The notes under the pieces were generated by a model. It was not told the DNA's origin. It made no database searches and saw only the letters and a program-made list of their open reading frames with translations. Shown one piece after another: positions 25,324 to 35,451 of a stretch of DNA of 35,451 bases; position 1 is the stretch's first letter, and each line of letters starts with the position of its first letter. The position numbers and the translations under genes were made by a program. The DNA is from Candidatus Cloacimonadota bacterium (GTDB taxonomy: Bacteria; Cloacimonadota; Cloacimonadia; Cloacimonadales; JAQVBK01), in the NCBI GenBank assembly GCA_028690365.1, contig JAQVBK010000007.1, forward strand, positions 1 through 35,451, read 5' to 3'.

Positions 25324-26289
25324 CTATATTCTGATTCCTGTTATTTTAAAGAATTTATCAAGATCAAAATTTGGAATGCTTCTGACAATATTTTTGTTTC
25401 TTTCTGATAAACCATTCCACCATTCAGTGCAGCAATCTGTGTTATCACGAATCTTCAAATAACCGACAGTTGTTTCATGTTCTGTGTGTTCTGCTTTTTC
25501 AATATCAGTCATGTCATCAGTCCAAATCCAATCAGCAGGTCTGAAATCAATCTGATTCAAAAGGTATCTTGCATCTGAATTCTGCCACTGATCAAATGAC
25601 ATGTCTGTTTCTTGATCAAAGAATTTTAATTTCTGACTTTGTGTGTTGAAACATCCCATGGTTTGAGAAGATTTGTTCCAATCACCACTGTTCCAATTAC
25701 CACTGTTCCAATTACCACTGTTGCGATTACCACTGTTCCAATTACCACTGTTGCGATTACCACTGTTGCAATTACCACTGTTGCAATCACCACTGTTGCA
25801 ATTACCACTGTTCCAGTTACCACTGTTGCAATTACCACTGTTCCAATTACCACTGTTGCAATCACCACTGTTGCAATTACCACTGTTGCAATCACCACTG
25901 TTGCAATCACCACTGTTGCAATCACCACTGTTGCAATCACCACTGTTGCAATCACCACTGTTGCAAAGTCCAGTGCAGGCTTTTCCTATATTTACAATTG
26001 TCAAAACTTCCTGCCATGTAATTTCCCTGATTACCTGAATTATATTAGTGCAACATTTGTCACCTTCTTCTGAAACATCACCGATTGCAAGAATTTCTGC
26101 AACTTTATTACTTGGATCAAAACCATAATAGTTGAAACAATCTTTTGCTTCTTTACAGAAGTGAAACCCTTTATCGCATACACTTGGTACAATATTTTCT
26201 TCATAAACCTTACCTACTTCATATTGAAAACCCCTGCATGTCCAATCAGGATTAAAAACTTTAAACCCCTTCATAGCTTCCATTTGCAT
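25324..26289 (-). CDS. DUF7666-type protein with 19 Asn-Ser-Gly pentapeptide repeats
   Basis: About 321 residues. The first 100 (MKGFKVFNPDWTCRGFQY, then VCDKGFHFCKEAKDCFNYY) match a conserved phage N-terminal domain of unknown role. Next come 19 perfect pentads NSG(D/N)(C/W/R), then a C-terminal segment with FDQWQNSDARYLLNQIDFRPADW. The pentads probably form a beta-solenoid. C-type units cluster at the N-terminal side and W/R-type units at the C-terminal side. Of several near-adjacent in-frame ATGs, the one at 26289 is best spaced from AAAGG. A role in DNA mimicry or binding is possible but unproven. Confidence 0.75.
   Translation of the reverse strand: MQMEAMKGFKVFNPDWTCRGFQYEVGKVYEENIVPSVCDKGFHFCKEAKDCFNYYGFDPSNKVAEILAIGDVSEEGDKCCTNIIQVIREITWQEVLTIVNIGKACTGLCNSGDCNSGDCNSGDCNSGDCNSGDCNSGNCNSGDCNSGNWNSGNCNSGNWNSGNCNSGDCNSGNCNSGNRNSGNWNSGNRNSGNWNSGNWNSGDWNKSSQTMGCFNTQSQKLKFFDQETDMSFDQWQNSDARYLLNQIDFRPADWIWTDDMTDIEKAEHTEHETTVGYLKIRDNTDCCTEWWNGLSERNKNIVRSIPNFDLDKFFKITGIRI
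25678..25962. repeat. 15-bp tandem repeat array, 19 units
   Basis: Nineteen in-frame 15-bp units on the minus strand: AAC AGT GGT then GAT or AAT then TGC, TGG or CGC. The first three codons are identical in all units; variation is confined to the last two codons. The uniformity suggests recent expansion by slippage or recombination. Confidence 0.97.
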
Positions 26290-26374
26290 TTCCATCCTTT
26301 CATTGCTATAATGATATTAATATTATTTTCTAACTGCACCATTTGGAACTTGCACTTCCTTTGGTGCTTTTCTT

Positions 26375-27401: not shown

Positions 27402-28724
27402 TCAGCATGGACCACCTTCTGCACCATGAAATGCACCTGATGGATACATCCATTTTCCTTTGACATAAATGTCATCAGTAGTAAATTCACCTGTTAAAAT
27501 ACTATGTAATGCTTTTTCATCACCATGGTATACACAAGACTTCGCACATCCAACAAAAGTGTCCAAATCCTTTTTGTTATCAATTGTGAATCCAAGTGTC
27601 TGTTCATCTTTTTTTAGTGCTTCATATTCAACTGGAAAAAGTTCTTTTATTCCTGCAAATAATGTTGGTGTGGAAAATATACACATTGAACATGAACACC
27701 GATTCCAACCAATTCTATAACATGGATGTGGATTCACATTGTGTCTTTTAAACACTTCCCAAACATCTTTTTCAGAATAATCAATAACTGGTCTCCATTG
27801 ATGAACTGTTCTATGTGCCTTTGCTTGTGCATTGGTTCTGTGAATTTCCATTTCGTTATATTTTGATCTTCCTACTGATTCACCACGTCTTTCACCTGAT
27901 ACAACCAAGATCTTTGTACTTGTCCTGGTCTTCTCCAGGTTAGAAGTGACACTGTCTTGTACTGCTGCTTTCAGGTTTCCACTGCACCATCTTCCTTGGT
28001 GTGTTCCACTTTTTGCAGGAAACTTGTGCCTTTTACCTAACTTTTCAAGTTCATCAAGACTGTCCAAATTTCTAATTACTGTATCTGCAACAACTATTTT
28101 GAGATAAGCACTGCACCATCTTTTTGATAAATCACCACTCTTTGCAGGAAACTTCATTCTATAACCATATTCTTTCAACTGTTCTTCCATTTCACATGCT
28201 GACTGCTCTTTCAATTCTTTACATTTCAAGTAATTGGACGAAAGTTTACATTGCTTGATTTCCCCAGTACCAGGTTCTATCCATTCAATCGGTTCTGATG
28301 CACCTAGTCTATATAGTTCACCAAAGAACCCATTTATTCTGTATGAAATTCTTAATGGAACACCTTCTGCTTCTGATAATGCTTTCACATAATTCTGTGT
28401 ACATGTCCAGTCCATTTTTCTTATCGGATGACCACCATCAATATCATGATGCCAAAATTCCATTTTTTCTTTTGGTACACCAAGTTCTAATAATTTGTAA
28501 TAGCAAGCTACACTATCTTTTCCACCTGATAATAAGATAACTACTAAATCATATTCTTCAAGTGGTAATAATTCAGGTAAAAATGTTTTTTTGAAATATT
28601 CTGTTTCATTTCTTCCCGGTACTCTTGGTTTTATCTTTTCACCTGATCCATAGATTTTCACATCTTCAATTCCATGAATTATTGGTGTATCTTTATTACA
28701 ATCTACATCCCTTATATAATCCAT
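27402..28724 (-). CDS. PAPS reductase-like PP-loop ATP pyrophosphatase
   Basis: A 440-residue protein, longer than classical CysH enzymes. The PP-loop SGGKDS is at residues 66-71. A Cys cluster RCSCSMCIF at 342-350, after HPCYRIGWN, could hold an iron-sulfur cluster. An internal duplication (KFPAKSG, RWCS and LK at 191-209 and 234-252) is notable, with 13 of 19 positions identical. Phage members of this family are proposed to act in sulfur metabolism or DNA phosphorothioation-like chemistry; no Dnd genes are nearby. It is the first gene after the early promoter and its long leader. The start has AAGGATG upstream. Confidence 0.85.
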   Translation of the reverse strand: MDYIRDVDCNKDTPIIHGIEDVKIYGSGEKIKPRVPGRNETEYFKKTFLPELLPLEEYDLVVILLSGGKDSVACYYKLLELGVPKEKMEFWHHDIDGGHPIRKMDWTCTQNYVKALSEAEGVPLRISYRINGFFGELYRLGASEPIEWIEPGTGEIKQCKLSSNYLKCKELKEQSACEMEEQLKEYGYRMKFPAKSGDLSKRWCSAYLKIVVADTVIRNLDSLDELEKLGKRHKFPAKSGTHQGRWCSGNLKAAVQDSVTSNLEKTRTSTKILVVSGERRGESVGRSKYNEMEIHRTNAQAKAHRTVHQWRPVIDYSEKDVWEVFKRHNVNPHPCYRIGWNRCSCSMCIFSTPTLFAGIKELFPVEYEALKKDEQTLGFTIDNKKDLDTFVGCAKSCVYHGDEKALHSILTGEFTTDDIYVKGKWMYPSGAFHGAEGGPC

Positions 28725-29049
28725 TTCAACATCCTTCCTGATTATTCATTGTGCAGTGGTTACAAAATGGGTACTGTGTCTTCTCGCTTAGCAACTGTTC
28801 AGGTCACAAGTTCCATAGCCGTTGGAGTGGTTTTGGCAACCCTAGGTTTTCGCTAACTACTCACCCTCTATGCTCCGTTTAACTCTTGTGCGTCTTTTCG
28901 TTACCTTTTGGTGTTCAGGTGTCTTACCAACCGCTCTGTCAGGTCTTCCCTGCTTAGTTTCCATTCTACTTGCGATTGAGCCCTAAATCCGAACCCCGTT
29001 TCCTGCTTTCCCATTTTCACTGCTTTTTTGTTTGTGTATTGTTAAGACT
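28725..29049 (-). ncRNA. Long G+C-rich leader, candidate structured RNA
   Basis: From the predicted early start (about 29049) to the first gene there are about 325 bases. G+C over 28801-28980 counts to 47%, against about 37% in a sample of the neighbouring coding sequence. A stem pairs CAATCGC (28979-28973) with GCGGTTG (28935-28929) and encloses a CAGG/CCTG hairpin; TTAGC (28857-28853) can pair with GCTAA (28793-28789). A 37-codon frame (29015-28902, MGKQETGF) is present but has no clear ribosome binding site. It may be an antitermination or regulatory leader. No known RNA family was identified. Confidence 0.45.
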
Positions 29050-31407: not shown

Positions 31408-31640
31408 ATATACTGTGTATTACTTGTTTATTACTTGTGTATTACACCTAAATTTTCATAGGTTTTCGTGTGTCTTTCAGAATGAACAAATCCCCCAACC
31501 ATAAAGGTTTGGGGGATTTTCATTTTGTCTGAAATTATCTCTTTGAGAACTGTGGTTGCTTTATATAATGGTGTTTGAAGGTCATTTGTGTATTACTTGT
31601 ATATTTCCTTTGGTATCGTTTAAGATCAATCCTTTGAACT
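31408..31640. other. Probable attP region with integrase arm-site repeats
   Basis: A 233-bp non-coding region. TGTGTATTACTTGT occurs exactly at 31414-31427 and 31587-31600, with partial copies at 31428-31438 and 31437-31445. Direct repeats flanking a core are typical of integrase arm sites. The crossover core itself cannot be identified without the attB sequence. Confidence 0.6.
31488..31520. terminator. Bidirectional terminator between integrase and amidase
   Basis: An 11-bp stem AAATCCCCCAA/TTGGGGGATTT, extended by CC/GG after a bulge, with a loop of five bases. It is T-rich on both strands. It can end both the rightward integrase and the leftward lysis transcripts, which converge here. 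Confidence 0.92.
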
Positions 31641-33904: not shown

Positions 33905-34955
33905 TCACGCAACCTTTCTTTTTATATTGTTTATATAATAATCTACTGAATATTGTTCAATAGGTTTCATATACTTTTGACTTAATCTATAACTATCACA
34001 ATGGATCAACCATCCTTTGTATGAGTTTACCGAACACCATTCTGAATATGTCATTTCTTCATGGTTCAACCGCTTGACATTGATCGCAGTCATTTTCTTT
34101 TTGAACTGCTTACATGTGGTTTTTCTAAGAAGTGAATAATTCATGAAGGATCTGTACCCTACAAAATCAACACCACGAACAAATGTTGGAAACACTTGCC
34201 AGTTACCTTTCATTACAAGCTTTAATTTAATTCTAAAATATTGATCAAATTCCTTCCTAAGTTCATGAAGATATTCTTTCGATTCATGAAAAACAACAAT
34301 GTCATCCATGTATCTGTAATAATATTTCAAAAGTTTAATTTCTTTTGCCCAATGATCAAATTCTGAAAGGTAATAATTACCACTATACTGTGAAAGATAA
34401 TTTCCAATAGGGATTCCTTTTTCACCTGGTGTTGAATCAATTATTTCATCCAATAACCAAAGAAGTTCGCTATCTTTGAACATTCTTCTGTACTTACCTT
34501 TCAAGATGTTATGATCAATGGAAGGATAGTATTTCTTTGCATCTATTTTCAAGCAATATTGTGTGCCTGGAACATCATTCTGAATTGCATGTTGTAATCT
34601 ACCATATACAAGATGGATACCTTTTCCCGGTATAGCTGAATAGGTGTCATTTGTAAGGTTATTTAAAAGATATGGTTCAATAACCTGTAAAATTGCCCAC
34701 TGACAAATTCTATCAGGGAAGTTTGAATATTTCTCTTTCCTTCCCACTATCTTTCTTAATAAAAGTTTCGTATGGTGAAGTTTGGTATGTTTTATTTATC
34801 AACATTTCTTGAAGTATTCCAAGATAATAATCTTCATTTGAATCAATCATCTTGACTTCTGTATACCATCCTTTTCCCTTCTTTGCATTTTTATGTGCAG
34901 ATCTAAGATTATCCATACTATAAATCTTTTCATATAAGTTACCGTATCTTTTCAT
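33905..34955 (-). pseudogene. DGR reverse transcriptase, frameshifted
   Basis: Two frames form one reverse transcriptase of about 349 residues. The first (34955-34713) starts MKRYGNLYEKIYSMDNL and ends EREIFKLP at a TGA. The second continues with DRICQWAILQVIEP. Motifs in the second are KIDAKKYYPSIDH (motif A), GIPIGNYLSQ (the DGR-type IGxxxSQ), YRYMDDIVVF (catalytic YxDD) and FVGYRSF. The frames meet at CTT CCC TGA. Family members have two or three more residues here (KLPxxPDR), so an 8-bp deletion between CTTCC repeats is likely. A +1 shift at CCC-TGA would restore a protein lacking about three residues. It copies the template repeat RNA into mutated cDNA. Confidence 0.88.
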
Positions 34956-35099: not shown

Positions 35100-35220
35100 C
35101 ATTTACTAAGTGACTGCTGATATTCCGATTACGATTAGAAGAAGTATTATTCACATTCCAATTGAAACTACCACTGTTAGTACCATTATTCCAATTACTG
35201 CCTAATTGAGTGATTAACTA
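35100..35220 (-). repeat. DGR template repeat (TR)
   Basis: A 121-base repeat aligned without gaps to the variable repeat at 35322-35442 (offset 222). In the 120 bases from 35101 there are 30 differences; 29 lie at template A (T on the given strand), 1 elsewhere. Of 42 template A, 29 are changed: 18 to G, 7 to T, 4 to C. Read in the frame of the target gene it is Asn-rich (SNWNNGTNSGSFNWN), with AAY codons placed for maximal diversification. Confidence 0.97.
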
Positions 35221-35290
35221 AAAATGGTTTTTTCTTTTGTTCTACTTCAAATTGGTATCAACACCTTGAATTGCCCATATATTTAATATT

Positions 35291-35304
35291 TAAAATTAAT
35301 TTTA
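35291..35304. repeat. Palindrome at the end of the variable gene
   Basis: TAAAATTAATTTTA is a perfect 14-bp palindrome overlapping the stop codon of the variable protein gene. DGRs often have a cruciform or hairpin just downstream of the variable repeat that aids retrohoming; this is a weak, A+T-rich candidate. Confidence 0.4.
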
Positions 35305-35451
35305 TGCAATAGTAGCAGGTACATACACCAAGCGACCGCCGATATTCCGAACACGACAAGAAGAAGTATAAGGCACACGCCAATAGAAACCACCACCGCA
35401 AGCATCACCACTCCAAGTACCGCCTAATTGAGCGATAAACCATGATGCAAC
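35302..35451 (-). CDS. DGR variable target protein (C-type-lectin-like), 3' end only
   Basis: The last 49 codons of a protein that starts beyond the right edge. It ends WFIAQLGGTWSGDACGGGFYW, with RVRNIGGRLVY and a short VPATIA tail. Trp, Gly and Arg patterns fit the C-terminal part of C-type-lectin/formylglycine-enzyme-fold DGR target proteins. The variable repeat covers all but the last few codons. It is probably a tail-tip receptor-binding protein. Diversified residues include the positions that are Asn in the template. Confidence 0.88.
   Translation of the reverse strand, partial: VASWFIAQLGGTWSGDACGGGFYWRVPYTSSCRVRNIGGRLVYVPATIA
35322..35442 (-). repeat. DGR variable repeat (VR)
   Basis: The partner of the template repeat at 35100-35220. 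It lies inside the C-terminal coding end of the target gene, with its 3' boundary seven codons before the stop. One difference (35405) is G to A on the coding strand, outside the adenine rule, and may be an ordinary mutation. Confidence 0.97.

Follow-up and report, generated by a model that had tools for sequence, protein, structure and literature searches.

A phage-borne diversity-generating retroelement with a frameshifted reverse transcriptase and a lineage-wide, two-class pattern of adenine substitution

Results

The Locus and Its Phage

The window, by which we mean the whole stretch of DNA analysed here, is 35,451 nucleotides long and is one complete contig of a Candidatus Cloacimonadota bacterium (C311 of a 449-contig bin). 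It covers the greater part of a temperate, contractile-tailed phage, with genes for sheath, terminase, portal, capsid, scaffold, DNA polymerase, repressor, integrase, holin and amidase. At mid-contig (30,367–32,426) the integrase sits beside the lysis genes for amidase and holin, an arrangement that suggests excised or circular phage DNA rather than an integrated prophage. A stretch at 31,478–31,527 resembles its own reverse complement (77% match) and is a candidate part of attP; the search of the bin for an attB match of the integrase-lysis region returned chance matches only. Two other features of the early region lie on the minus strand. An Rfam RAGATH-8 RNA (28,762–29,019, 115 bits) is found just upstream of an ORF (27,402–28,724) that is, by inspection, putatively PAPS-reductase-like, and another ORF (25,324–26,295) carries about 20 NSGN/NSGD pentapeptide-like repeats.

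The contig ends inside a gene that is the target of a diversity-generating retroelement (DGR). On the minus strand this target gene is followed by the variable repeat (VR), the template repeat (TR) and the reverse transcriptase (RT), the same single-strand order that a sequence-only reading of the window had given. Of the target gene, the last 49 codons and the stop are present (35,302–35,451, minus strand, VASWFIAQLGGTWSGDACGGGFYWRVPYTSSCRVRNIGGRLVYVPATIA before the stop). Because the window is a whole contig, it lacks the rest of the gene, and a search of the bin did not recover it.

The VR (35,322–35,442) is in frame with the end of the open gene and finishes 20 bases before the end of the stop codon. 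The TR (35,100–35,220) is non-coding, with an in-frame TAG at its start opposite a TGG in the VR. As the sequence-only reading had found, both repeats are 121 bases long, lie 222 bases apart and align without gaps. They differ at 30 positions. Twenty-nine of the 42 template adenines are changed, compared to 1 of the remaining 79 bases; this one exception is a G to A near position 35,183. The earlier reading had counted the same differences over 120 bases and 78 other bases, a trivial discrepancy. The 3' ends of TR and VR show fixed differences across relatives. No perfect stem of at least 6 bases was found within the 100 bases after the VR of the window, and the 449-contig bin contains no further copies of either repeat.

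Could such a pair arise by ordinary repeat divergence or by chance, without any retroelement? We regard this as practically negligible, since 29 of the 30 differences fall on A (hypergeometric p about 9e-17), an RT lies alongside and the pattern recurs in dozens of relatives.

The RT spans 33,905–34,955 on the minus strand, and two reading frames are needed to cover it. Its N-terminal part (34,713–34,955) begins with an ATG at 34,955 and runs into a TGA at 34,715–34,713 that results from a frameshift. The C-terminal part (33,905–34,747) is in another frame and contains GIPIGNYLSQ and YMDD. The protein matches RVT_1, which lies in the C-terminal part, and PHROG 1423. Its best solved relative is the "Reverse transcriptase" chain of 8ub7 (E 1.4e-22), which we take to be the BPP-1 DGR RT complex. 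Between TR and RT lies a match to the Rfam RNA family RT-17 (RF03020; 34,976–35,074, minus strand).

The Retroelement Belongs to a Phage-Borne Lineage

Searching with the RT yielded 80 viral and 63 genomic loci. Most loci of the RT clade of the window have an A-specific TR/VR pair of 100–130 bases, about 160–310 bases apart and upstream of the RT, and the same layout of TR, VR and RT is repeated in more than 60 related loci. In the relatives the VR lies right at the end of its gene, which in most cases encodes 590–700 amino acids.

We turned to these relatives for the nature of the target. A Pfam search of the target gave nothing convincing. The full target of one relative (L016) is a PHROG 5302 tail protein. 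We modelled the last 300 amino acids of the target of another relative (L015) with a mean pLDDT of 85. The best structural match of the model is the DGR variable protein TaqVP of Thermus aquaticus (5vf4, E 2.5e-10), which comes from a different DGR and is 15% identical. The next matches, Mtd and formylglycine-generating enzymes, are not significant. The target of the relatives is thus a phage tail protein with a predicted C-type-lectin-like fold.

The element in the window is a phage-borne DGR and thus belongs to a known kind of element. The sequence-only reading had said as much, and A-specific TR/VR differences, a DGR-type RT, a tail-protein target and the repeated layout bear it out. Three things are new here: the mutation pattern of two classes across the lineage, the position assigned to RT-17, and the frameshift of the window copy.

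Variation in related phages, whose absence would have spoken against the earlier reading, is readily seen. In pairs of near-identical loci with an identical TR, the VR differences that fall on template A number 13/13 (L033/L112), 14/14 (L085/L105), 16/16 (L101/L102), 3/3 (L021/L022) and 12/13 (L071/L099). This turnover of the VR means that the DGR lineage of the window is active.

The Window Copy Has a Broken RT

The earlier reading also held that the phage diversifies the end of a probable receptor-binding protein. For the window copy this is unsupported because the RT gene is frameshifted. Relative to other loci, 8 bases are absent at a junction (34,716–34,721, minus strand) between two TTCCC-like direct repeats, and the window thus lacks an intact RT gene. 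The junction reads CTTCCCTGATAG (KLP/PDRI), where the 40 closest relatives have an unbroken KLPYFPDRI. The missing residues fall within a stretch that is conserved in nearly all relatives. Under a strict length filter 101 of 109 RT loci are uninterrupted. The remaining loci are contig-edge cases or one residue short of the upstream cut-off, except for the window and one other locus, whose break lies close to a contig end.

With its RT frame broken when compared to more than 100 relatives, the DGR copy in the window is probably inactive or a non-functional variant. The VR may have been written before the deletion occurred, or the sequenced phage could be a non-functional variant in a population that keeps intact copies. 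The bin contains no other DGR RT that could act in trans. By inspection its sole other RT (locus L001, positions 442–2,754 of contig C285 in the same bin, G000) has a Cas6-like N-terminus and a Cas1-like C-terminus, and looks like a CRISPR RT-Cas1 fusion.

Alternatively, the frameshift could be an assembly or sequencing error, or the ribosome could bypass it by +1 slippage at CCC TGA, leaving the DGR fully active. We think this quite possible, though on balance doubtful. The sequence comes from just one contig of the 449-contig bin, the frame of the C-terminal 280 codons is otherwise open and the 0-frame stop follows CCC. However, the loss of 8 bases between direct repeats is typical of a spontaneous deletion, and a protein made by slippage would still be without residues that nearly all relatives conserve. 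The broken RT lowers the case for an active copy, not the case for a DGR. For the phage in the window the lesson is that a perfect TR/VR signature is no proof of an active element.

RT-17 RNA Lies between Template and RT

The RT-17 match in the window scores 67.3 bits against a gathering threshold of 40.4 bits. RT-17 reaches the gathering threshold in 15 of 20 DGR loci, always between TR and RT. Within the same phylum it is found in 2 of 125 genomes, that of the window and one other (G052). The latter has two matches, one of them below the cut-off, and both adjoin DGR-type RTs.

We also approached the question blind to the RT, by scanning viral contigs for the RT-17 core motif alone. Among the 53 loci found this way, 43 have a DGR RT 290–380 bases downstream and 40 an A-specific TR/VR pair. 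Allowing for contig ends, some part of a DGR is present at 49 of the 53 loci. On four viral contigs with the core motif (L176, L197, L198 and L213) neither a DGR RT nor a TR/VR pair was found nearby; these may be chance matches or reflect another use of the RNA.

The pairing of RT-17 is accompanied by compensatory changes in 8 of 16 pairs. The interval between TR and RT measures 144 bases in both the window and BPP-1, and in BPP-1 it carries another structured RNA, Rfam RF03022 (Phage_DGR), which occupies a position like that of RT-17 but belongs to a different sequence and structure family. Given its regular place between TR and RT, the DGR parts at 49/53 loci, the covariation and RF03022 in BPP-1, the reading that fits RT-17 best is that it forms the 3' portion of the template RNA in the lineage of the window. 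The BPP-1 spacer binds the RT and primes cDNA. By analogy, RT-17 may bind the RT or prime cDNA as well. Its placing would give a function to an Rfam family known by name only.

Two Kinds of Template Adenine

In 57 non-redundant TR/VR pairs some TR adenines are free in the VR, and others are G in every VR. The outcome depends on the next template base. We read this rule from VR snapshots and used core positions only, excluding the ends. In these pairs an A before G is G in the VR in 123 of 125 cases; for an A before C the figure is 61 of 89. In contrast, an A before A or T is kept in 41–53% of cases and otherwise spread over the other bases. Across the Avd-less lineage, to which the window belongs (see below), a template A before G is G in the VR at 193 of 198 core sites (about 97%). 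When VR letters are shuffled within loci, the corresponding mean is 77 and the maximum 98. When the set is thinned so that a single RT represents each group at 75% identity, the count is 70 of 72.

The window itself follows the pattern. Seven of its eight AG adenines are changed, all to G, and one keeps its A. All four changed AC adenines are G as well, while the changes at AA and AT are mixed. Altogether, changes to G make up 11 of 11 at an A before G or C, compared to 7 of 18 at an A before A or T (p about 0.001, calculated by hand). Thus the earlier reading was right that variation is specific to A, but random substitution of A by any base is only half of the story: an A before G almost always becomes G.

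One way to obtain fixed A-to-G sites is selection on the tail protein. If Gly, Ala or Trp is required at these positions, then other random outcomes would be lost. Many AG sites are indeed AGY codons turned into conserved Gly (GG..R motif). Yet the same bias is present at synonymous sites, where the protein does not change. At four-fold synonymous AG sites of the Avd-less lineage G is found in 52 of 53 cases (31 of 31 for GCA followed by G). All synonymous AG sites together give 70 G versus 2 A, whereas A is retained at 19 of 32 synonymous AT sites. Furthermore, if each event depended on a 1-in-4 chance at several sites, G should by now have replaced A in the TR. Selection is hence an improbable cause.

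Together, the counts for core sites (193 of 198) and for the four-fold sites among them (52 of 53) argue that A substitution in the Avd-less lineage is partly deterministic, not random. As a fact of the VR sequences the AG pattern is strongly supported.

A second alternative is that nothing is transferred at these sites: AG sites have always been G in the VR, and once the cDNA has annealed, that earlier G is restored by mismatch repair or patchy conversion. Sites at the 3' end (TR positions 103–118) do act like the fixed IMH/IMH* difference described for BPP-1, and VR snapshots do not display the cDNA itself. However, AG sites inside the span that was rewritten behave the same way. In five identical-TR pairs of near-identical phages from the clade of the window, all 23 internal AG sites, lying between rewritten positions, are G in both alleles. 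Moreover, there is no reason to expect repair to be sensitive to the 3' neighbour or to vary between DGR clades. We consider non-transfer unlikely.

Template slippage, in which the previous base is copied twice, was rejected as a model for the AG rule because an A before C goes to G, not to C.

The Rule Follows the RT Tree

On the RT tree the clade of the window comprises 68 loci, and A before G is G at 181 of 186 sites. A second viral clade, which includes crAss-like phages, comprises 14 loci with 12 of 12. The clade with BPP-1 behaves in the opposite way: A before G is G at 3 of 42 sites and kept in 37 of 42, and at four-fold AG sites it is G in 0 of 18 cases. The rule is also found in the named crAss-like phages cr60_1, cr50_1 and cr10_1, and in an archaeal virus.

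The accessory protein gene Avd is distributed along the same lines. We detected it with a purpose-built Avd profile on six-frame ORFs, since PF05635 was silent on the control. All 26 loci of the BPP-1 clade have an Avd-like ORF, whereas none of the 82 loci of the other two clades does, including the window, whose target-side end is cut. Avd is not required in all DGRs. On the RT tree the contrast between DGRs with and without Avd comes down to one or two independent events, and therefore Avd, RT clade and RNA type are inseparable as a cause. Some DGR loci with no detected Avd (L119–L122, L226, L230 and L234) have TRs that contain no core AG sites and are silent on the rule.

This distribution also bears on RNA editing. 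A host or phage enzyme could edit A to I in the template RNA, so that the RT merely copies the edited base, and an A read as G with a 3' G neighbour would fit. Nevertheless, we know of no enzyme in these hosts that edits A to I in this way, which counts against it, and in Bacillota phages as in crAss-like phages the rule tracks the RT clade. We hold editing to be very unlikely. The most likely reading of the AG rule is a cause in the RT complex, not selection.

Discussion

Comparison with Known Systems

The DGR of the Bordetella phage BPP-1 shares much with that of the window. In both, a VR at the end of a tail gene, a TR, 144 bases with a structured RNA and the RT follow on one strand, VR changes are specific to A, the target is C-type-lectin-like (in the window lineage by prediction) and the RTs are related (28% identity over 84%). 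In contrast to the window, BPP-1 has an Avd gene between VR and TR and RF03022 in place of RT-17, its RT lacks the frameshift and its clade keeps A before G where the lineage of the window turns it into G.

Closer to the window are the Avd-less DGRs of Bacillota phages (such as L015/L016, L033 and L112) and of the Psychrobacillus phage Perkons. They share its RT clade, its class of TR/VR spacing, the AG rule and, in most cases, RT-17, but their RT genes are uninterrupted. The Bacillota loci also have the same target family. The DGRs of crAss-like phages have RTs that are 42–44% identical to that of the window and other target genes, and in some the RT adjoins the tail gene. An A before G becomes G in 8/8 cases in cr60_1, 6/7 in cr52_1, 6/6 in cr50_1 and 9/9 in cr10_1. 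Counts of 8/8, 6/7, 6/6 and 9/9 were noted for the crAss-like loci L223, L224, L225 and L228.

A survey of 155 DGRs found substitutions to be essentially random and argued against a strong enzymatic bias (PMC3521204). For the BPP-1 RT expressed in Escherichia coli context effects have been described, most prominently for A before C, without mention of near-complete conversion before G (PMC12875486). In the literature that we searched, which is incomplete and does not include the paper that first described RT-17, this BPP-1 enzyme is the only one with measured context effects, and there is no account of the AG rule or of a tie between RT-17 and DGRs.

A Model for Partly Deterministic Mutagenesis

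We propose that the window carries a phage-borne, Avd-less DGR with two classes of A errors, of which the AG class stems from the RT complex, and we consider this model likely. The DGR reverse transcriptase would copy a transcript of the TR and the RT-17 RNA, misreading A in the template, and the resulting cDNA would then replace the VR at the end of the tail (receptor-binding) gene. In this lineage the errors at A are unconstrained at AA and AU sites but nearly always give G at AG sites. The AG class may arise when a C is inserted opposite A after the previous template base was G, a property that we ascribe to the RT complex.

If so, there may be two biochemical classes of DGRs, a broader proposal that we favour somewhat more cautiously. 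The Avd-less RT complex would read AG as GG nearly deterministically, and AC mostly as GC. A template would then combine random adenines (AAY codons) with obligatory switch sites, which may also prevent TR and VR from becoming alike, and RT-17 would be the template-RNA module of much of the class.

The AG rule alters estimates of the diversity that a template can yield. A lineage in which one adenine context leads to one fixed base also provides a direct handle on why these reverse transcriptases misread A.
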